Positions 674 to 14,538 of a stretch of 63,844 bases of DNA are shown piece after piece. The stretch comes from Bacteroidales bacterium (GTDB taxonomy: Bacteria; Bacteroidota; Bacteroidia; Bacteroidales; Muribaculaceae). The notes beneath the pieces are model-generated. The model saw nothing but the letters and a program-made list of their open reading frames with translations. It ran no database searches and was not told where the DNA came from. The DNA lies in assembly GCA_910575615.1 (NCBI GenBank), contig CAJTEX010000016.1, forward strand, positions 1 to 63,844, read 5' to 3'. The position numbers and the translations under genes are program-made. Each line of letters begins with the position of its first letter. The stretch's first letter is position 1.

Positions 674-3130
674 ATGGCGGCTCTTGATGACCTCATAAAT
701 AAGATTGATAATCCGGAGTTAAAACTTCAGATGCAACACGTTGTACGTAAGCTTCTCAAACAAAAGAAGTTTGGACTTGTATTTGAGGATCATCTCCCCG
801 AATCCACCATCCTTCAAGAACGGGAGGTTCGAGTCGGTTTAACCGTGACCTACAAATCCGAACCACTCAAAGAACGTTTTTTTGTTCGAGCTATCAACAA
901 CGACATAGCTGAGTGCATCTCATTGAATGATACGACTTTGACTCGTGCAATCCCGATTGGCGATTTGGTGCCGTTCGCCACTTTCGGAGAGCCTATATAT
1001 CCGTATCTACAAGTTCAAGATACTATATCAACAGCCCCCGATAGTCCGCTGTGGCATTCTCTTATTCAGGCCGACAATTACCATGCACTACAACTGCTTG
1101 CCTATCTATATCCCGGCAAGGTTGACTGCATCTATATCGACCCGCCCTATAACACTGGCGCTCACGATTGGAAATACAACAATGACTATGTAGACAGCAA
1201 CGACTCATATCGTCATTCCAAATGGCTCTCTATGATGAAGAAGCGTCTGTTGCTCGCGAAAAAACTTCTCAATCCCGCCGACTCAGTCCTTATCGTCACC
1301 ATTGATGAAAAAGAGTACAACCACTTAGGTTGCTTGCTTGAAGAATTGTTCCCAAATGCGTCAACCCAAATGATTAGTACGGTAACTAACCCCAAAGGTG
1401 TTAACCGTAATGGATTCAGAAGATGCGATGAATATGTTTATTTTGTATTGTTTGGAAGTGCCGTTCCTCAGAGGTTAGAGCTTTCTGCTGAATGGTCTCC
1501 ATCAACAAAGAAGGATTCTAATAAATCGAAAAAGAATCTTACACCAGGATGGACATCTATGATGAGAAGGGGGTCACATTCATCAAGATGGGAAAGAGAG
1601 GGCCTTTATTATGCCATATACGCAAATCCAGATACTAAAACGATAGAGCATATCGGCCAACCCATTCCAAGTGATCATACTAAGGATGACGAAATTGCAG
1701 GTTTAGTTCAGATCAGACCCATCAGAACTAATGGTGATTTAGGGTGTTGGCAAGTTGGGCCTGACGAATTAAGGCGTAGAATTAAACAAGGACGAGTAAG
1801 ATTGGGCTCCAAAACAGATTATGGATACGTTGTTAATTATTTACCTGATGGAGAATACTCTAAAATCTTAAATGGACAGTTCTCTATTATTGGATATGCA
1901 GATGACGGTTCTATTATGGCAACACAATCTATTGAGATTGATGACGAGAGCTTGGCACCTTCCTTATGGAAAGTAGCTTCGCATGATGCTTCTGCAAACG
2001 GTTCTACGCTTATCCGAAAGTTTTTATCCGATAAACGCTTTGAATACCCTAAATCGTTATACGCTGTCCACGACACACTCCGTTTCTTCGTCGCCAACAA
2101 GCCCAACGCATTGATTGTTGACTTCTTCGCAGGGTCAGGCACCACGCTTCATGCCGTCAATCTCCTTAATGCAGAGGACGGCGGAAGCCGTCGCTGCATA
2201 ATGGTAACGAATAATGAGGTGGGAGAAACCTCTGAAAAGGATTTGACGGCTAAAGGCTTCAAGCCGGGAGATGAGGTGTGGGAAAATCTCGGCATCGCCC
2301 GTTATGTCAACTGGCCGCGTACAGTGGCTTCCATCACCGGCCTTGATGTCAAAGGGCAACTGATTAAGGGCGAATATCTTACATACCTGACTACCGAAAA
2401 GGAATCTAACCGTCGTTTTCAGCAAATCTCTTTTGTCAATGATTTTTCTTCTCTCAGTCTATCCGAGAAGAAAGACCTCGTGACTGTACTTTCCAAAGGG
2501 TCTATTGCGAAATCAAGCGTGGAAGACGATGCTTCATATATCATTGACAATGACTCGGCCATCGCAATTCTGCTTGATGAAGCATCTGCGTCCGATTGGC
2601 TTGAAGAACTTGAAGGACAGAACGGGATTCGCGACTTCATTATCTGCACCGCCGACAAAAAACTTTTCAACTCTCTAAAAAAGAGAATAACAGAATTGCT
2701 CGGAACTTTCAAGGAGCAAGTACCTCTGACATTGCCAATGTCGGATGGATTCAAGGCAAACGCCATCTTCTTCAAGTTGGGTTTTCTCGACAAGCAAGCC
2801 GTCCAGATGGGTCGACAGTTCACTGAACTTCTTCCGCTACTGTGGATGAAATCGGGAGCTTACGGCGCATGCCCTCAGATAAGTTCCGATTCTATTCCGG
2901 CAATTCTTATTCTGCCACAGAATAAGTTCGCTGTGCTTACCAACGAGAACGAGTTCGGTGCTTTCTACGATGCATTGGTTACTGCCAATGACATCGAAAC
3001 AGTATATATCGTCACTGACTCTGAAAGAGGTTATCGCGAAATGGCGGCTCAACTCAGAGTACGCAACAGCTATCAGCTCTATCGTGATTATCTTGATAAC
3101 TTCACCATCAACACGAAAGGCTCAATATGA
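674..3130 (+). CDS. mod: Type III restriction-modification DNA methyltransferase (Mod)
   Basis: This is the modification and recognition subunit of a type III restriction-modification system, transferring methyl from S-adenosylmethionine to adenine N6. Motif IV, DPPYNTG, is at residues 156-162. The SAM-binding motif DFFAGSGTT is at 483-491. That order (IV, target-recognition region, I) is the beta class used by type III Mod proteins. The roughly 320 residues between them should hold the target-recognition domain, and the DNA there is visibly more AT-rich than the flanks, as is common for exchanged recognition domains. The gene is 818 aa, somewhat longer than many Mod proteins. It overlaps res by 4 bp (ATGA), indicating translational coupling. 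The recognition site cannot be read from the sequence. Confidence 0.93.
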   Translation: MAALDDLINKIDNPELKLQMQHVVRKLLKQKKFGLVFEDHLPESTILQEREVRVGLTVTYKSEPLKERFFVRAINNDIAECISLNDTTLTRAIPIGDLVPFATFGEPIYPYLQVQDTISTAPDSPLWHSLIQADNYHALQLLAYLYPGKVDCIYIDPPYNTGAHDWKYNNDYVDSNDSYRHSKWLSMMKKRLLLAKKLLNPADSVLIVTIDEKEYNHLGCLLEELFPNASTQMISTVTNPKGVNRNGFRRCDEYVYFVLFGSAVPQRLELSAEWSPSTKKDSNKSKKNLTPGWTSMMRRGSHSSRWEREGLYYAIYANPDTKTIEHIGQPIPSDHTKDDEIAGLVQIRPIRTNGDLGCWQVGPDELRRRIKQGRVRLGSKTDYGYVVNYLPDGEYSKILNGQFSIIGYADDGSIMATQSIEIDDESLAPSLWKVASHDASANGSTLIRKFLSDKRFEYPKSLYAVHDTLRFFVANKPNALIVDFFAGSGTTLHAVNLLNAEDGGSRRCIMVTNNEVGETSEKDLTAKGFKPGDEVWENLGIARYVNWPRTVASITGLDVKGQLIKGEYLTYLTTEKESNRRFQQISFVNDFSSLSLSEKKDLVTVLSKGSIAKSSVEDDASYIIDNDSAIAILLDEASASDWLEELEGQNGIRDFIICTADKKLFNSLKKRITELLGTFKEQVPLTLPMSDGFKANAIFFKLGFLDKQAVQMGRQFTELLPLLWMKSGAYGACPQISSDSIPAILILPQNKFAVLTNENEFGAFYDALVTANDIETVYIVTDSERGYREMAAQLRVRNSYQLYRDYLDNFTINTKGSI

Positions 3131-5982
3131 AAGTCCAGTTATTCCCTTTTCAGCAAACAGCATTAGCCAAAATGCGCAAACAGGCGCATCAGGCTCTTTC
3201 GTTGTATAATATCGACACCGAACATCCCCCACAAATAATTTCGTTTACCGCACCGACCGGCGCGGGCAAGACCATTATCATGTCAGGGCTGTTGGAAAAC
3301 ATATACTTTGGCGACGAAATTCTTCCGGCGCAACCTAATGCCGTCACCATATGGCTCAGTGATGATCCCAATCTCAACGAGCAGTCAAAAGAAAAGATTG
3401 AGACACGTGCTGACAAATTCACACTTGGTCAATGCGTAACCATCTCGGAAGATTCTTTTGACTGCGAAGTACTTGAAGATGGGAAAATATATTTCCTGAA
3501 TACTCAGAAGCTATCCAAGACAGGCAAACTCACCAGGCATTCCGATAGCCGACAATACACTATTTGGGAAACTCTTCAAAACACTATTCTCGAAAAGAGC
3601 GACCGATTATACTTCATCATAGACGAAGCCCATCGAGGTGCAAAGCCTTCGGAGTCAGGCAAAGCTACATCTATCATGCAGAAATTCATACTCGGAGATG
3701 AGAGCGTAGGATTGTCGCCCATGCCTTTGGTTATCGGCATGAGTGCCACCATAGAACGTTTCAATAGTCTTATCGGCAACTCGAACTCTACCGTCCACAA
3801 GACGGCGGTTTCTCCTACCGAAGTAAGACGGTCGGGATTGCTCAAAGAGTGGATTATCATAAACTATCCCGATCAACAGATTGCCAACAAGGACATGGCG
3901 GTTTTGCAGGCAGCAACCGATGAATGGCGAGACAAATGGAAACGATGGTTTGTGTATTGTCAGGAACAACACTACGCCCACGTTTACCCGATAATGCTTG
4001 TGCAGGTAGAGAACGGCACTGCCGGACGCATATCCAATACCGATTTGGCTGACTGTATCAGCAAAATAGAATCTCGCGTCGGCACACCGTTCAAAGACGG
4101 TGAGATAGTCCATGCTTTCGGGTCAAAAGGCAACCTTGAAATCAATGGTCGCAAAATTCCTTATGTAGAACCTGCTTCAATCGCAGGCAACCGTGATATA
4201 AAAGTGGTCTTTTTCAAAGACTCACTTTCCACTGGCTGGGATTGTCCGCGAGCTGAAACCATGATGTCGTTCCGTCGAGCTTCCGATTCTACCTATGTAG
4301 CACAGCTATTGGGTCGAATGATTCGCACTCCTATGCAGATGCGCATCGAAAAAGACGAGACCTTAAACGATGTAAAGCTTTTTCTGCCTCATTTTGATAA
4401 AGATACTGTTTCTTCCGTTATCGAAGCTCTTAAAAATATTGAGGGGGGAGAATTACCCTCTGATATCTCTGGGCAACAGATAGGAGGCGGAAACACACAA
4501 ACGCTCACCGTACATCGCCCAACGCCTGTGACAACATCCGCACAGCCTGTGGTGATTGTTTCATACGCGAACCAAAGCACTCCGCCTCATGTTGCCGTTT
4601 CGTCTCATCCACAAGCGACATCGCAGGTTTCTCCACAAACTGGTGTGTCAAACTCTGAGACTGCCTCAAAGGACAGCAACGTATTTAATGAAGCGAGCGA
4701 CTTTAATGAAACCAACGTGTTTGATACACCAAGCACTAACGATGTCGCACAACCCTCGCTCGCAAGTTCCGGCGAAAACGTTGCTGTTTCTGCCGAACAT
4801 GATACGTTTGCGAGTGCGCCCATTGCCTCGTTTGACAGAGTATCTGTCATGGAGGCTATAAACGACATGGCACTGCTCAACTTCTCCGTTCGCCCTATAC
4901 GTATAAAAGATTACTTTTATTCCTATTTCGCACTCTGTCGTCTGTTGGTCCAGTCAGAGGTGAAAACAGATGCGTACACCATTGCTGTCACTGAAATAGG
5001 CGATTTTATCGAATCATACATAAGCGAACTGAAATCTCGTGGCGAGTATGACAGTCTTGTCAAAAAGGTGCAGGAGTTCAAGATGGCTTCTCAGATTTTT
5101 GATGCCCTCGGCGAAAGTATCGAAAATCAAGTGAGTAGCAACCTGTTCACGACAACCGACTCCGACATAGAGCGTCAGTTCAACCTTGCCGAATCGAAAC
5201 TCGGCAGTGAGGGGATAGGAAATAAATACGTTAACCGAGACGCTGATTTATTCAACCATACACAACGGAAAATTGATGTTATCCTATTCGCTTCCAATTC
5301 CAATGAATTGGAGAGGATGCAACAATTTTCTAAGGGACGCTTCTATAATCTTAAGGATATGTTTCGTCTTACTTTTGCTCACATGGAAGAAAAATGGCGC
5401 AAAAGATACGAGAATATCGTTGCTGACGGCGACCCTGTCAGTCAGAAATCATTCCACCTTCCTGATTATATCTCCATTCAGTCAAGCGAAGACGGAACGT
5501 CTTTCTCTGACCATCTCTTTGTAGACGAAGCGATCGGCGCGGCCACCTTCAAACTCACTTCCTGGGAAGATAAGACACTAAAAGAAGAACAGCAAAGAGA
5601 TGACTTCGTAACATGGCTAAGAAATCCAGCCCGCGGGTCATGGGCGTTGTGTATTCCTTACGTCATGAATAACGAGAACAAGGCAATGTATCCCGATTTT
5701 GTTATCGTTCGCAAAGCGAATGACAACTACGTTCTCGATATTCTTGAACCGCATAACTCATCACTCAAAGACAATTTGCCTAAGGCAAAAGGTCTTGCCG
5801 AATACGCGCAGCGAGAACCTAAAATAGGTCGCGTGCAGCTTATCCGCCTCGTCTCTGCGCATGGTGTTGATAAACTTGTTCGATTGGACTTGAACAGTTC
5901 CCTCGTTCGCGAGAAAGTGATTCAAGCTAATACAGAAAGTGAGCTTGACCATATCTTTGATATAGACGGGATTGTTGAATAA
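3127..5982 (+). CDS. res: Type III restriction enzyme, helicase-nuclease subunit (Res)
   Basis: This is the ATP-dependent translocase and endonuclease subunit that cleaves DNA in complex with Mod. The superfamily 2 helicase motifs are in order: Walker A TAPTGAGKT at residues 41-49, the DEAH box at 166-169, and STGWDCPRAE followed by QLLGRMIR as motifs V and VI. A low-complexity Ser/Thr/Pro/Gln/Asn linker follows the helicase core. Near the C-terminus, YPDFVIV (Asp 857) and LDILEPH match the PD-(D/E)xK-type nuclease region of Res proteins. All key residues are present, so the enzyme should be active. It is 951 aa, a usual length, and is joined to mod by a 4-bp overlap. Confidence 0.93.
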   Translation: MKVQLFPFQQTALAKMRKQAHQALSLYNIDTEHPPQIISFTAPTGAGKTIIMSGLLENIYFGDEILPAQPNAVTIWLSDDPNLNEQSKEKIETRADKFTLGQCVTISEDSFDCEVLEDGKIYFLNTQKLSKTGKLTRHSDSRQYTIWETLQNTILEKSDRLYFIIDEAHRGAKPSESGKATSIMQKFILGDESVGLSPMPLVIGMSATIERFNSLIGNSNSTVHKTAVSPTEVRRSGLLKEWIIINYPDQQIANKDMAVLQAATDEWRDKWKRWFVYCQEQHYAHVYPIMLVQVENGTAGRISNTDLADCISKIESRVGTPFKDGEIVHAFGSKGNLEINGRKIPYVEPASIAGNRDIKVVFFKDSLSTGWDCPRAETMMSFRRASDSTYVAQLLGRMIRTPMQMRIEKDETLNDVKLFLPHFDKDTVSSVIEALKNIEGGELPSDISGQQIGGGNTQTLTVHRPTPVTTSAQPVVIVSYANQSTPPHVAVSSHPQATSQVSPQTGVSNSETASKDSNVFNEASDFNETNVFDTPSTNDVAQPSLASSGENVAVSAEHDTFASAPIASFDRVSVMEAINDMALLNFSVRPIRIKDYFYSYFALCRLLVQSEVKTDAYTIAVTEIGDFIESYISELKSRGEYDSLVKKVQEFKMASQIFDALGESIENQVSSNLFTTTDSDIERQFNLAESKLGSEGIGNKYVNRDADLFNHTQRKIDVILFASNSNELERMQQFSKGRFYNLKDMFRLTFAHMEEKWRKRYENIVADGDPVSQKSFHLPDYISIQSSEDGTSFSDHLFVDEAIGAATFKLTSWEDKTLKEEQQRDDFVTWLRNPARGSWALCIPYVMNNENKAMYPDFVIVRKANDNYVLDILEPHNSSLKDNLPKAKGLAEYAQREPKIGRVQLIRLVSAHGVDKLVRLDLNSSLVREKVIQANTESELDHIFDIDGIVE

Positions 5983-6003: not shown

Positions 6004-8355
6004 ATGTTTGAAAATTTCAAAAAAATAACAATCAAAGGAGGCTGTTTTAGTTCAGACACCGAATTAGAACTTTTTAATAAAGAAGCTCTTAGTGTTATTT
6101 ATGGTCGTAATGGAAGTGGTAAAACCACAATAGCCCATTGCATTGGTGAATTAGTAAAATCGGAAGAAGAAAAAAACGCTGATTTTACTGTGACTTCATA
6201 TGAATCAATAACGATAGACAAGAGGGATTCAGTATTTATTTTTAATGAAGATTTTGTGCGAGACCACGTTAGAGTGGAGAATGATGGTATAAACACCATT
6301 ATTATGCTGGGAGAACAGGTTGAGTTAGACGAGTTGATTGCGGAAAAGAAAAAACTCCTCATTGGACTTAAAGAAGAGTATATCAAATTGGAGGAGGAAC
6401 GAAAAAGACTAGACAATGCTAAAGATAATATTTCGCCGTTATATTATTATAATTTAATACGAGATGCGCTTCGTGCGGATGGAGGATGGGCTGATACTGA
6501 TCGAGATATAAAAGGGAATACAGTAAAAAGTCGAGTTTCCGAAGATTTAGTCCACACTTTGTTGGGTCTTACTGAACCAATAGAGAATTATGATACTTTG
6601 CGCAGCCGAGTAATCGACAATCTAAATCTTTATAAAGAGTCTGAAGATGCCCAAGAACTGGATTGGGTTAGAGATAATGTATCACTACCTGAAGGTCTTG
6701 AACAACTAAATGAATTGTTAATAAAACCGTTGGATACGCCTAAGTTGACAGACCGTGAACGTAGGCTTTTGGCTTTATTAACACAGCATCCACAGTATTC
6801 AACAGACGAAACCAAGCGAATGATGGCAGAAAATTGGCCTTTCTGTCCTATGTGTTTGCGTGAAATAACAGAATCTGACAAGAATATCATTGCCCAAACT
6901 TTAACCTGCATATTGAATGAAGAGGCAAATCAATATGAAGCATTGCTACGCGTTGAATTGGAGAAGTTTTCCATGATTGGAACATCTCTTCCGACTTTTA
7001 GAGGCAGCTTAAATGAACGGGAGTTGAAGAGTGCGCAAACAGCAAAGACAAATCTTAATTCCATCCTGCATAAGATACAACAAATAATCATTCAACGTAA
7101 GAATGACATTTACACATCTCTAATAAATCCATTCTCGGAAGAAGACTATTTAGCATATAAAAGTTCTGTTACTGCATGGGAAAAGGCTTTGGACGCTATG
7201 GAGCTATGCGTAAAGCGCTTCAACGATTCCGTTACTAAACGGAATAAGTTATATAGACAGTTACGGATAGATAATAATTTATTGGCGAGAAAACAACATT
7301 CAGCATTATTGGCTAGTTACAAACTGGCTAATGAATATAGTGAAAAAAATCAAGCTCAAATAGAATCCAAGCGTAAAGAGCAGGAGACAATTCTGCTAGA
7401 AATCAAATCACTAATTTCCCAGAAAGAGCGTACGGATATAGCATTAGACTATATTAATCAAGAATTACAATATGTATTTTTCAGCAAACGTAAGGTGATG
7501 CTGGAACCAGGCAATGGCTGTTATAAACTTCGGATTAATGGCAAAGCTGTTAAACCAAAGAAAATTAGTGTCGGAGAAAGAAATGTATTAGGATTATGTT
7601 ACTTTTTTGCTAAGCTGTTTGGTGGCAAGACAGTAATATCCAAATACACTTCTGAATATCTTATTGTGATTGATGATCCGGTATCAAGTTTTGATTATGG
7701 CAATCGTGTTGGAGTTATGTCGTTGCTGCGATTCCAATTCGGAAATATCCTTAAAGGAAATTCTAACAGTCGAATATTGGTCTTATCTCATGATTTACAA
7801 TCAATTTTTGACCTTATGAAGATTCGTAATGAAGTAACCGATAAAAAAGATCCCACTTTTGTTGAGTTAGTAAATCTCAGTCTAAAAGTACATAAGTTAA
7901 AGAACGAATATAAAAAATTATTGGAGAGCGTATTTGAATACGCTTCTTCTGCGACAACATTTGACTCTGATGATATTCGTGATATTAGTATTGGAAATAC
8001 TATGCGAAGATTACTAGAAGCTTTCTCCAGTTTTTGCTATGACATGAACTTTGAAAAAATGCTTAGAAAAGAGGATATTCTTTTAGAAATCCCAGAAAAT
8101 AGACGGAATTATTATGGAAATTTCATGTATAGGCTCACTCTAAACTCTGAAAGCCATATGGAAGAGAATATCTATACCCTTAATGGAATTACTGCAAGAT
8201 TCACAAAGGAAGAAAAGATCCAAACAGCAAAGAGCATACTTCTCTTTTTGCAATATATAAATAAGCCGCATCTTAATGCCTATCTCTCTGAACATATGGC
8301 AGAGATTGAGAGTTGGAAAGCAGATGAAGAGGAATGGGTTCTTCCAACAATATAA
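6004..8355 (+). CDS. RloC/PrrC-like AAA_13 ATPase, probable anticodon nuclease
   Basis: The protein has a split SMC/Rad50-type ATPase. Walker A GRNGSGKTT is at residues 34-42, the signature-like ISVGERN near 521, and Walker B IVIDDPVSSFD near 555-565. The central part is charged and coiled-coil-like and carries a single CPMC (281-284) that could form a zinc hook. The C-terminal 180 residues contain R668-x3-E672 and later H718 in NSESH. RloC and PrrC anticodon nucleases use an Arg-x3-Glu plus His triad behind an AAA_13 ATPase, and RloC has a zinc hook, so the architecture fits RloC well. Such tRNA nucleases are known as back-up defences linked to restriction systems. The gene starts 21 bp after res. 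Nuclease function is inferred; another restriction-linked ATPase is possible. Confidence 0.72.
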   Translation: MFENFKKITIKGGCFSSDTELELFNKEALSVIYGRNGSGKTTIAHCIGELVKSEEEKNADFTVTSYESITIDKRDSVFIFNEDFVRDHVRVENDGINTIIMLGEQVELDELIAEKKKLLIGLKEEYIKLEEERKRLDNAKDNISPLYYYNLIRDALRADGGWADTDRDIKGNTVKSRVSEDLVHTLLGLTEPIENYDTLRSRVIDNLNLYKESEDAQELDWVRDNVSLPEGLEQLNELLIKPLDTPKLTDRERRLLALLTQHPQYSTDETKRMMAENWPFCPMCLREITESDKNIIAQTLTCILNEEANQYEALLRVELEKFSMIGTSLPTFRGSLNERELKSAQTAKTNLNSILHKIQQIIIQRKNDIYTSLINPFSEEDYLAYKSSVTAWEKALDAMELCVKRFNDSVTKRNKLYRQLRIDNNLLARKQHSALLASYKLANEYSEKNQAQIESKRKEQETILLEIKSLISQKERTDIALDYINQELQYVFFSKRKVMLEPGNGCYKLRINGKAVKPKKISVGERNVLGLCYFFAKLFGGKTVISKYTSEYLIVIDDPVSSFDYGNRVGVMSLLRFQFGNILKGNSNSRILVLSHDLQSIFDLMKIRNEVTDKKDPTFVELVNLSLKVHKLKNEYKKLLESVFEYASSATTFDSDDIRDISIGNTMRRLLEAFSSFCYDMNFEKMLRKEDILLEIPENRRNYYGNFMYRLTLNSESHMEENIYTLNGITARFTKEEKIQTAKSILLFLQYINKPHLNAYLSEHMAEIESWKADEEEWVLPTI

Positions 8356-8390
8356 AAGACCTAAGAAAGACTGATGATGCTTACTGCCCT

Positions 8391-9920
8391 ATGACTATTG
8401 ACGATATAAAGGCATTGATTGCAGCGGACGAGTCGCGAACTCTGGAGCTGAAAAGGACTACCGGCGAACTGAAAGACGGTATGCACTCGGCGTGTGCGTT
8501 TCTCAACACAGATGGTGGTTGGTTGATTTTTGGAATTACGCCGACAGGATTGAAGATTCTTGGGCAGCAGGTTACGGAAACGACTAAACGTGAGATTGCA
8601 CAAGCCATTGCCGGATTGGAGCCCGCTGTCGATGTGAAGATTCATTATGTGGAAGTGCCAGACCGTCCGGGAAACAAAGTTATTGCCATGCACTTTGATG
8701 GCTGGGTATGGGGAGAGCGACCGCATACCTTCCACGGATGCCCTTATTATAAAGTCGAAAGCACAACGAAGGTAATGCCGCACGAGATGTATGATGAACG
8801 AATCCGGGCGCATCAGCCTCAGATGTATGCGTGGGAGCGTCAGATGGCAGATGGTGTTATGCTTGCCGACTTGAACGAGAAGCATATCAGAGGGTGCATC
8901 CGGCTTGGCGTTGAGGGCGGTAGAATTCCCGCAAGCGCAATGAGTGCGCCGATCGATGACACATTGGCGAAATGGAATCTTCTGAAAAACGGCAATCCGA
9001 CCAATGGAGCGGTGATGCTTTTCTCGAACAATATCGAAGAGTATCCGCAGTTTCGGCTTCGGATGGCTCGCTTCTTGGGTAACGATAAGAATGAGTTTAT
9101 CGACAACCAACGTGCAGAGGGCAACTTCTTCGACTTGCTTGACGCTGGCATGGCATTCTTCTTCAAGCACCTCAATTTAAGCGGAAAGATTACAAGCCAC
9201 AGCCTTCAGCGCGAGGAACGCCTTGAAGTGCCGTATCACGCTTTGCGCGAAGCATTGATTAACAGTCTGTGCCATCGTCAATGGGAGAAGCATAATCTGA
9301 CCGGAAGTATCGCAATCTACGATGACCGCATAGAGATTGCCAATCCCGGCATATTCCCTCCTCAAATCTCACCCGAATCCATCAAGGAGCCGCACGAGTC
9401 CTACCCATACAATCTTAAGATTGCCGAAGCCCTGTATAAGTCAACCTATCTGGAAAGCTGGGGTTCCGGAGCCAAGCGTATAATGGATGCTTGCCGCGAA
9501 CAAGGCGTAGATGAACCCACATGGCGTTGGGACGGAGGCTTTGTAATCGTAACCTTCAAACGACCGACAAGGAACGTGGCTTCCCAAGAAGCCATCAAAT
9601 CGAGTGGCGGAGGAAACGGCATACAAACAGGCTATTCTGCCAAAGAAACTAAAGAAACCAAAGAAAATCCCAAAGAAACCAAAGAACTCCCCAAAGAAAT
9701 TATTGACGCAATCAATAATCGCGATTTGACGGAAGTTCAATGCAATTTGCTGTCTCTGATTATAGCAATGCCCTCTATAACCTTGTCCAAGATGGCGGAA
9801 GAATTGAATCTGACCATAGATCAGGTGCGGACTTTGAGAAAAAAAATGGAAAATAAAGGTGTATTTCTTTGCCGTATAGGAGCCACAAAGAAAGGTTCCT
9901 GGGAAATAAAATTTGAATGA
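8391..9920 (+). CDS. AlbA_2 (Schlafen-type) / HATPase / winged-helix protein
   Basis: The N-terminus (ESRTLELKRTTGELKDG, then CAFLNTDGGWLIFGI) is an AlbA_2 putative DNA/RNA-binding domain. The middle (REALINSLCHRQW, then DDRIEIANPG) is the GHKL-ATPase-like domain found behind AlbA_2 in proteins often mislabelled RecG-like. A lysine/glutamate/threonine repeat built on KETKE precedes a C-terminal winged helix. I start it at 8391, where the family begins with MTIDDIKALI; an in-frame ATG at 8334 would overlap the upstream gene by 22 bp. Position in the operon suggests regulation of, or assistance to, the restriction/anticodon-nuclease genes. The mechanism is unknown. Confidence 0.85.
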   Translation: MTIDDIKALIAADESRTLELKRTTGELKDGMHSACAFLNTDGGWLIFGITPTGLKILGQQVTETTKREIAQAIAGLEPAVDVKIHYVEVPDRPGNKVIAMHFDGWVWGERPHTFHGCPYYKVESTTKVMPHEMYDERIRAHQPQMYAWERQMADGVMLADLNEKHIRGCIRLGVEGGRIPASAMSAPIDDTLAKWNLLKNGNPTNGAVMLFSNNIEEYPQFRLRMARFLGNDKNEFIDNQRAEGNFFDLLDAGMAFFFKHLNLSGKITSHSLQREERLEVPYHALREALINSLCHRQWEKHNLTGSIAIYDDRIEIANPGIFPPQISPESIKEPHESYPYNLKIAEALYKSTYLESWGSGAKRIMDACREQGVDEPTWRWDGGFVIVTFKRPTRNVASQEAIKSSGGGNGIQTGYSAKETKETKENPKETKELPKEIIDAINNRDLTEVQCNLLSLIIAMPSITLSKMAEELNLTIDQVRTLRKKMENKGVFLCRIGATKKGSWEIKFE

Positions 9921-10849: not shown

Positions 10850-12097
10850 TTACATCGGCACATAGTTGATTTCACCGAGGGAGTTGATAGCATCCTGTTT
10901 CAGACTGTCAACGACATGGAGATATCGCTCTGTCATCTTTATGGAGGTATGTCCGAGGAGGCTTGACACCGTTTTTATATTCGCTCCTTTGGTAAGGACG
11001 TTCACCGCGAAGCTGTGCCGGGCGCAATGCCATGTGATTTTCTTCTTAATGCCTGCCGCCTTTACCCATTTACGAAGATACAGGTTGCAGATGTTGTAAT
11101 GCGGAACTTTGAATATCCGGTCATCATAGTTGTCGTTATCCGGCTCACCGATCAGACGGATAAGGGTGTCGTTCAATGGAACGATTACCCAGCTCCGGCT
11201 GCTGTGGTCTTTTGTCTTTTGCTGCTGGAAACGCAATGTTTGGGTTGTGTAATCCACATTGCGATAGGTGAGCTGGCTCGTGTCGCACCATCGCACACCG
11301 GTATAAAGAGCGAAGATGAACGCACGATGAATCTCCGGCTTCTCTCCCTCAAAATGTGTAGCCACAAGCTGCTGTATTTCCTCCGGCAGAAGAATCTCCT
11401 TTTGAAGCGTCATGTTGTCGTTCTTCAACACGAATCCCCGACACGGATTTTTCTTGATTAGGTCTTTGTCAACAGCCGCCGTAACCATACGCTTGAACAT
11501 CCGGAAATAGATTTTGGGGCCGTCGCCTGTTCCGTTCTCTTTCAGATACTCAACATAAGCCGCCACCATGTCAACCGTCAGTTGCGTCATCTTCAGATTT
11601 TTCTTATAAAGGGAATATCTCGGCGTATCGGCAAGAAAGGTCATAAACTTTTGCAGACCGTGCCCGAGCGTTATGCGGGTGTATTTAGTGAGCGACGGGG
11701 ATTTGATGAACTCCTTGTAGAACTCAAGAAAGTCCTCATCCATATCCTTGCGGAGTCGATAGCCCTCCCTGTCCTCAAGGAAAGATTGCTCACGTTCAAA
11801 ACGTATCTTTTCAGCAAGGGCAAGAGTATTCTTGTTCTGCAAACGCTCCTGCTGGTTGCGGGGATGAAGCCAGATATACAGGTTGAGGTTTTCTTTCTTG
11901 CGGGAGTGTTTGATTTGATATTTCGGTTTACCCGCCATCGCTCCCTCGGTGTAAAACACCTGATTGCCGTCCTCGTCAAGCACGGGCGATTCAGTCCGTC
12001 CGAGATAATATTCAAGGAAAAGGCTGGCGCGACCATCGCTCAACTCCGATTGCCGTAGCTTGGGATTCTGCTTCTTGCGATTTTCTATTTTTGCCAT
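10850..12097 (-). CDS. Tyrosine recombinase/integrase of the island
   Basis: This is a Bacteroidales-type site-specific integrase with an N-terminal arm-type DNA-binding region, a SAM-like core-binding domain and a catalytic domain. The catalytic residues visible are Arg 269 in YTGVRWCD, the HCARH box (His and Arg), LLGHTSIKMTE and the nucleophile Tyr 392 in ERYLHVVD, so it should be active. I start it at 12097 (MAKIENRKK), which gives 415 aa. A longer frame to 12166 begins inside the MITE inserted just upstream and would add 23 unrelated residues. It faces the restriction-modification operon and lies about 330 bp inside the candidate right attachment site. Confidence 0.93.
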   Translation of the reverse strand: MAKIENRKKQNPKLRQSELSDGRASLFLEYYLGRTESPVLDEDGNQVFYTEGAMAGKPKYQIKHSRKKENLNLYIWLHPRNQQERLQNKNTLALAEKIRFEREQSFLEDREGYRLRKDMDEDFLEFYKEFIKSPSLTKYTRITLGHGLQKFMTFLADTPRYSLYKKNLKMTQLTVDMVAAYVEYLKENGTGDGPKIYFRMFKRMVTAAVDKDLIKKNPCRGFVLKNDNMTLQKEILLPEEIQQLVATHFEGEKPEIHRAFIFALYTGVRWCDTSQLTYRNVDYTTQTLRFQQQKTKDHSSRSWVIVPLNDTLIRLIGEPDNDNYDDRIFKVPHYNICNLYLRKWVKAAGIKKKITWHCARHSFAVNVLTKGANIKTVSSLLGHTSIKMTERYLHVVDSLKQDAINSLGEINYVPM

Positions 12098-12104
12098 ACA
12101 ATTA

Positions 12105-12324
12105 TATTGCTGTCCGGTAAAACTTTGACATGATAGGAAATGGACTATTTTTATCTCATACAGCATGAAACAGACTCGTATAGATGTCTTTTAAGGGCTT
12201 TTTGATGCTTAATGCTACCAATTTCACATCGCCTCAAATGACAAGCCCTTTTTCGTAAAACAGGTGTAACTTATTATATTTGTAGAGAATATATGATTTT
12301 GTCTTTTTTTACCGGACAGCAATA
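12105..12324. mobile_element. MITE with IS4/DUF4372-like ends
   Basis: This 220-bp element has perfect 18-bp terminal inverted repeats, TATTGCTGTCCGGTAAAA at 12105-12122 and its complement at 12307-12324. It is flanked by a 9-bp duplication, ATACAATTA (12096-12104 and 12325-12333). It has no transposase. Internal GGGCT and AGCCC tracts can form a hairpin. Its ends closely resemble the left end of the IS at 63650 (TATTACTGTCCGCTAAAC), so an element of that family probably moves it. It separates the integrase start codon from the -7 box at 12344-12351. Confidence 0.85.
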
Positions 12325-13344: not shown

Positions 13345-14538
13345 ATGAAAAAACTCGCCATCATTATCATCTTTCTGTCATTGCTTTCCATAAGGTCGTC
13401 GGCCTCCACTTTCCATGCCATCATCTTCGCGAACACCGATGACTCACACATTGGAAAATCCGTTTATATCGACTTGAAACGTATGGAAGTGGAAATGACC
13501 GCCATATCCAAATCCATCGGATATTCCATCAAGAAATATTTCTATTATGGAGATGCCGCCAGATTCAATCGTGACAATCTCGAGTCTGTGATTGACAATC
13601 TAAATTGCGGGCCAGACGACATCATTTTCTTTTATTACTCCGGTCACGGAGGACGCGCCGAGAACGAAAACACCCAATTCCCGGAAATGTGCCTGACTGT
13701 CAACGAACCCCTCACACGTTCCTCCCAGCTCTGTCCTTTGCATAACGTCTACTCACGTCTCCGCAACAAGAATCCTCGTCTTACGATTGTGATGGGGGAT
13801 TTGTGCAATTCTATCATACGAGGATACAAGCGTAACGACAACCTGGCATCAAAAGGGGCCACGATACTATCAAAAGGAGCATACAACGTTTATAGAAATC
13901 TCTTTGTCAATGTAAAGGGCGGACTTCTCGCTGCTTCAAGCCAGCCCGGCCATACCTCCGGTTGCTATCAGATCCACGAGGATGGACAAACATATGAAGC
14001 CGGAGGATATATGACCCATTCATTCCTGACCATGTTGCAATATTGTGTCAGCCAAAGCCGGGAAGTCAGCTGGGACGGATTGATGAAAGGCACCATCACC
14101 TTGACACAGGAACTGACCTCAGCAGCTCCAACTCCTCAGACTCCCATCTACAAGTCCGAAATAACCATAGCTACCCCTCCCGCCATAAGCAACAACATAA
14201 ACACACCACCGCAGCAGCCGGCCCTGTCAAACGACGACGCAACTAACCAACGCGACAAACTCGCTTATTCGTTATCAATGGTCTGCAGCCAAGAGGTGCC
14301 GAAACTCGACAGAATCCACAACATCGACGCCGCAAAGAAATATTTCGCGGGGTCGCAGGCCCGTGTTCAGGTCATCGGAGCAGACAACCGGACAATAGTC
14401 AACACCTGCGGCATAGACAGTTATCTCAATTACCTCAGTATAGCGACAAATATGACCCAGGTAATGGTACTTGAGACCAAGGAAAACGAATCCGAGAAAA
14501 TCACATACCTGAAAGTTCACGAACTCCACTATAAATAA
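13345..14538 (+). CDS. Secreted caspase-like peptidase (C14 family)
   Basis: After a signal peptide (about 20 residues ending SSA) the protein shows the caspase-like hemoglobinase fold. It has an early strand AIIFANTDDS, the catalytic His 101 in YYSGHGG and the catalytic Cys 154 in VMGDLCNS. Both dyad residues are present, so it should be an active cysteine peptidase in the periplasm or at the cell surface. The C-terminal 130 residues after a Pro/Thr-rich linker are a separate domain I do not recognise. It is 397 aa and sits in a five-gene run of exported proteins. Its substrate is unknown; processing of a neighbour protein is a reasonable guess. Confidence 0.85.
   Translation: MKKLAIIIIFLSLLSIRSSASTFHAIIFANTDDSHIGKSVYIDLKRMEVEMTAISKSIGYSIKKYFYYGDAARFNRDNLESVIDNLNCGPDDIIFFYYSGHGGRAENENTQFPEMCLTVNEPLTRSSQLCPLHNVYSRLRNKNPRLTIVMGDLCNSIIRGYKRNDNLASKGATILSKGAYNVYRNLFVNVKGGLLAASSQPGHTSGCYQIHEDGQTYEAGGYMTHSFLTMLQYCVSQSREVSWDGLMKGTITLTQELTSAAPTPQTPIYKSEITIATPPAISNNINTPPQQPALSNDDATNQRDKLAYSLSMVCSQEVPKLDRIHNIDAAKKYFAGSQARVQVIGADNRTIVNTCGIDSYLNYLSIATNMTQVMVLETKENESEKITYLKVHELHYK

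Follow-up and report, generated by a model that had tools for sequence, protein, structure and literature searches.

A very probable RloC-family gene directly downstream of a type III restriction-modification pair in a Muribaculaceae contig

Introduction

When a gene for an RloC-like anticodon nuclease follows a type III restriction-modification (R-M) pair, do the two act together, or do they merely share a locus? This question is raised by contig CAJTEX010000016.1 of assembly GCA_910575615.1, from a Bacteroidales bacterium of the family Muribaculaceae, the entire 63,844 nucleotides of which are referred to here as the window (sequence to the left of position 1 lies outside our view). At 6004..8355, the window contains a gene that a first-pass annotation, made from the sequence alone, had described as RloC-like and had tentatively placed in a two-layer defence with the adjacent type III system. 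Here, we report that this gene almost certainly encodes a protein of the RloC family, judging from its motifs, profile matches and relatives, that a role in defence is plausible by analogy, and that a two-layer system with the neighbouring type III enzyme is unproven.

The hallmarks of RloC, as given in the excerpts of the original description used here, are ABC ATPase motifs, a coiled-coil insert with a CxxC motif, a length of 658-897 amino acids (aa), and an R-x3-E-x36-52-H triad in which a serine often precedes the histidine (PMC2610378; Davidov and Kaufmann 2008). In the same excerpts, 8 of 73 RloC genes known in 2008 were linked to type I or type III R-M systems, one type III case also adjoining ArdC, and a guard role like that of PrrC was proposed for RloC (PMC2610378). 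The arrangement of RloC beside R-M genes is not new, and has been reported before.

Results

Motifs and domain layout of the RloC-like protein

The gene is encoded on the forward strand, runs from ATG to TAA, and specifies 783 aa. A search against the AAA_13 profile, proposed in the first-pass annotation as a check, produced a match with an E value of 9.8e-50 over residues 25-722, and the PADLOC profile PDC-S06 matched at 8.9e-35. Conservation was assessed mainly on a profile-based alignment of 93 distinct relatives, some of them fragments, found in genomes of Bacteroidota, on plasmids and in viral contigs, and comprising all 35 viral open reading frames (ORFs), the locus ORFs scoring at least 70 bits, and the rows of alignment A2; the fractions given below are counted over the rows with a letter in the respective column.

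All the ABC elements of RloC were found in the window protein. The Walker A motif, GRNGSGKT, is present as previously annotated, spanning residues 34-41 (6103..6126) rather than 34-42, with N36 and K40 identical in 89/89 aligned rows. The ABC signature, identified from its motif and by comparison of rows, is SVGERN (residues 522-527; 7567..7584), and is followed by the Walker B motif and D-loop (residues 553-564, LIVIDDPVSSFD; 7660..7695), with the Walker B proper, LIVIDD, at residues 553-558. H596 (7789..7791), a histidine in 88/88 aligned rows, is what we take from its position to be the switch histidine, a name borrowed from ABC proteins and, in part, from PMC2610378. Between the Walker motifs, CPMC at residues 281-284 (6844..6855) is the single CxxC of the protein and the presumed zinc hook, each cysteine being retained in 89/89 aligned rows; long helices are predicted at residues 290-321, 338-367, 379-431 and 433-491.

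The C-terminal part, from approximately residue 635 to 770 (7906..8313), is predicted to be helical and, with its profile match to PrrC, is a putative HEPN-type nuclease. It contains the R668-x3-E672 portion of the catalytic triad (8005..8019; Arg in 77/78 and Glu in 76/78 aligned letters) and the S717-H718 portion (8152..8157; His in 56/71), with 45 residues separating E672 from H718 and S717 immediately preceding H718. The CPMC, the late Walker B and the three triad residues thus stand exactly where the first-pass annotation had put them, and conservation of the triad among homologues bears out its expectation. By itself, the triad motif is weak, because an R-x3-E followed by any histidine 30-60 residues on occurred within the last 183 residues in 23% of 5000 shuffles; the bare pattern was accordingly not counted as evidence alone. 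Taken with the helical CxxC insert and the length, the ABC motifs and the triad spacing with its serine are features that the window protein shares with RloC.

Homology of the nuclease region to PrrC and predicted structure

The PADLOC PrrC profile matched the RloC-like protein at 9.7e-8 over residues 512-727. Two PrrC proteins were detected by this profile in genomes of the host's family (1.4e-141 and 2e-95), both adjoining type I restriction and methyltransferase genes, and an hhalign comparison of these two with seven members of the clade described below gave 96.8% (E 3e-10), with the Arg, the Glu and the Ser-His pair in register. The window protein differs from PrrC itself, which according to the excerpts of PMC2610378 is 341-416 aa long, has no hook insert and is linked to type Ic R-M, whereas the protein described here is 783 aa long with a CPMC insert and has type III Mod and Res as neighbours.

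In the predicted model, R668 and E672 share one helix, and H718 lies in a loop with a predicted local distance difference test (pLDDT) score below 50. The top structural matches of the predicted head were Rad50 and SMC heads, and the BFVD matches were likewise Rad50/SMC-like proteins. Together, the family profiles, the motif conservation, the PrrC-region homology and the Rad50-like predicted head uphold the RloC identity that had been proposed.

Other searches were less productive. A single-protein sequence search of the PDB gave nothing significant (best E 0.12), and no RloC, PrrC or HEPN name appeared among the best 60 of 173 PDB matches (E up to 1) with profile A2; none of the 18 NCBIfam families listed reached its own cut-off for P0001. 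No relative was found in viral contigs with the single-protein query, one weak locus was found with profile A1 and at least 43 with profile A2; phage records gave two partial matches.

Conservation and place in the RloC family

An earlier alignment of 20 rows gave a similar picture of the triad (Arg 19/20, Glu 19/20, His 17/20). The invariance of the triad in A2 is partly by choice, that alignment having omitted L043, which lost all three residues, and L037 and L038, which lost the histidine; the same holds for the viral alignments A4 and A5, built from 16 of the 17 triad-pattern ORFs among the 35 viral ORFs. H718 is missing from 15 rows; all but one of these (14) belong to viral contigs, and most of the 14 group together in the tree. 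These viral-contig proteins (L087, L090, L095, L097, L103, L104, L107-L110, L117, L120, L124 and L125) possess the Arg and Glu and differ in the H718 column; either this stretch is misaligned or the active site is altered. H756 (8269-8271), a histidine in 72/72 aligned letters, is more constant than H718 and, from the alignment, is a candidate functional residue.

The signature distinguishes the window protein from most of its relatives: SVGE is found in 10/93 rows, including the window protein with its SVGERN, versus SEGE in 69/93. The eight SVGE rows long enough for tree construction are set apart together by a branch that has a support of 100, in a tree of 74 rows of at least 700 aa that was built by a quick method and has long branches. 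This clade has members in genomes of Bacteroidales and on plasmids of Pusillibacter faecalis and Lacticaseibacillus paracasei, and the window protein is 26-34% identical to the more distant among them.

Several relatives appear degraded or mobile. In the RloC-like proteins L171-L175 and L177, the head and hook are present and nothing aligns with the nuclease triad, and close relatives of the gene are broken by stops (L005 and L009/L033) or by a large internal deletion (L006). Near-identical rloC genes with the same flanking genes occur at L002 and L003 in two species, Hoylesella timonensis and Prevotella bivia, and at L036 a Fic and RloC pair adjoins similar-looking flanking genes; this pattern suggests a cargo site within one kind of mobile element.

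Genomic neighbourhood and linkage to type III R-M

Directly upstream of rloC, on the same strand, lie genes for a type III Mod (818 aa; 674..3130) and a type III Res (951 aa; 3127..5982), and rloC starts 21 bp past the res stop. Mod contains DPPY at residue 156 and FxGxG at residue 485 and matches N6_N4_Mtase (1.8e-17) and the PADLOC profile MTase_III (1.2e-146); Res contains helicase motifs and matches ResIII (5.4e-14) and, in PADLOC, REase_III (4.5e-9). By these features the two genes form a type III R-M pair, with rloC standing outside the usual pair. In Res, residues 856-876 (5692-5754), considered as a candidate PD-(D/E)xK endonuclease site, read PDF...DILEPH, unlike L070 Res, which has FDTK there; PDF...(E/D)PH is kept in all nine Res proteins of the same kind that were compared.

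Such linkage of RloC to type III genes is rare in print, and we found it rare in our own sample. The census covered 57 non-random RloC-like loci with flanks of up to approximately 9 kb, often shorter, searched with a reference set that was small and home-made; among the loci are two pairs, each from a single genome, L186-L195 include weak matches below approximately 240 bits, the partial copies L006 and L007 were excluded, and the triad column derived by regular expression was discarded after wrong matches at several loci. Type III matches were found at a single locus, the window itself, and type I-like matches at 10 (L162, L163, L164, L181, L184, L185, L189, L190, L191 and L192). The flanks fetched for the nine other members of the clade contained no type III match; among these members, L032 adjoins RloB and AAA_21 genes and L033 adjoins an N6_Mtase/HSDR_N_2 gene.

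Approached from the R-M side, the pair was found without rloC elsewhere. Six plasmid relatives of Mod-Res (six of the 15 listed, from 599 matching), the gene tables of which are incomplete, show no entry for an ATPase gene immediately downstream of Res; in all six records, a DEAD/DEAH helicase-type gene comes after the Mod region. Among the three closest chromosomal relatives of Mod, real downstream sequence is available in L068 alone, where the next gene is a resolvase on the other strand; G095 and G168 lie at or near contig edges and are uninformative. The base composition of rloC also differs from that of its surroundings, with a guanine plus cytosine (GC) content of 35.2% and 30.1% at third codon positions (GC3), compared to 44.1-47.7% GC and 44.2-51.4% GC3 in Mod, Res and the downstream AlbA/Schlafen gene. 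The simplest reading is that rloC moves as cargo among defence contexts, and here it has the look of cargo acquired independently of the Mod-Res pair that it follows.

It seems unlikely, then, that RloC is a dedicated second line of defence that Mod-Res restrains, or that senses Mod-Res, and that acts once restriction has been disabled by a phage inhibitor, in the way that PrrC backs up EcoprrI. The shared strand and the 21-bp spacing speak in favour of such a link, as do the linkages reported in 2008, alongside which the idea was put forward, and the type I-like matches beside 10 of the 57 loci. Against it stand the lack of type III matches at the 56 other census loci and in the clade, the six plasmid pairs and the deviant composition of rloC; the lasting linkage among relatives that would characterize a guard pair of the PrrC-EcoprrI kind was seen in neither set (0/9 and 0/6). 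Moreover, as reported in the excerpts of PMC3874168, an inducer of DNA breaks activates the RloC of Acinetobacter baylyi even when hsd is mutated, and a 2025 review, likewise seen in excerpt, restates DNA breaks as the trigger (PMC12707154). In a 2025 study of Streptococcus thermophilus, the pertinent excerpt names the loss of type I R-M as the event to which RloC responds, a response that was not tested there (PMC12322248). The excerpts of the literature surveyed contained no experimental test of a type III-linked RloC, and no paper joining AAA_13 with restriction-modification and HEPN was found. Of the two-layer proposal of the first-pass annotation, the adjacency therefore holds; the functional coupling, resting on adjacency alone, is weakened by the clade, plasmid and composition results.

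Downstream of rloC lies a gene for an AlbA/Schlafen protein with an HATPase_c_4 domain (8391..9920, forward strand; SLFN_AlbA_2 7.3e-14, HATPase_c_4 5.9e-20). Its ORF spans 8334-9920, and it probably starts at Met20 (8391), because relatives begin near that methionine; this start would abolish the overlap with rloC. Of 198 genomes from the host's family, 117 contain matches to it. Four of the 12 loci examined that carry relatives (59-92% identical) adjoin methyltransferase or R-M genes belonging to several different modules (L211, L214, L217 and L219), and the only RloC-profile match near the 12 is a weak one of 19 bits in L211; the gene looks independent of rloC. Further along are a phage-type integrase on the opposite strand (10850-12166) and a 397-aa ORF (13345-14538) containing YYSGHGG, which looks similar to a caspase-type peptidase motif. 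Measured in 1-kb segments, GC ranges between 0.34 and 0.49 as far as 18 kb, and between 0.58 and 0.65 from 19 to 24 kb.

Similar surroundings are known for RloC-like ABC-HEPN genes that lie beside Fic/Doc and R-M genes, which in the excerpts of PMC3710099 have the same architecture and mobile, R-M-rich neighbourhoods. The window differs from these in having no Fic gene, and a type III pair and the AlbA/Schlafen gene instead.

Discussion

Apart from its neighbours, the gene is ordinary for the RloC family, and it is reasonably probable that its product acts in defence in the manner of the RloC proteins already studied, from which the mechanism is carried over, with its DNA-dependent ATPase switch, its binding of zinc, its cleavage of tRNA with excision of the wobble nucleotide, and its action against phage. 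The Rad50-like ATPase head and the zinc-hook coiled coil would sense broken or linear DNA, ATP use would switch on the HEPN-type nuclease of R668, E672 and H718, and the nuclease would cut tRNA in the anticodon loop, so that translation would stop and phage spread would be limited.

Somewhat less likely even than a dedicated second line is an active HEPN RNase of RloC architecture directed at a target other than the anticodon loop, for example, another RNA. The separateness of the SVGERN clade and its low internal identity leave room for such a shift, and other HEPN RNases cut mRNA, as noted in the excerpts of PMC3710099, but the Arg-Glu-His pattern and its spacing match those of characterized anticodon nucleases. 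Improbable, too, is a protein whose head and hook serve DNA binding or repair only and whose C-terminal domain lacks RNase activity here: the Rad50 and SMC matches, the loss of triad residues in some relatives (L043) and of the aligned C-terminal part in L171-L175 would fit, but the triad is retained in the window protein and eight full-length clade members, and the C-terminal profile match is PrrC-like. We give equally little credence to type III restriction as the trigger, in which DNA ends made by Mod-Res on phage DNA would activate a linear-DNA-dependent RloC, translation would stop during restriction rather than on its failure, and the AlbA/Schlafen protein would be a regulator or a third layer.

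For the RloC family, the locus joins the few R-M-linked cases in print, and its type III pair looks complete. It also offers a compact setting in which to ask whether RloC is responsive to a neighbouring restriction enzyme, or to DNA breaks only.
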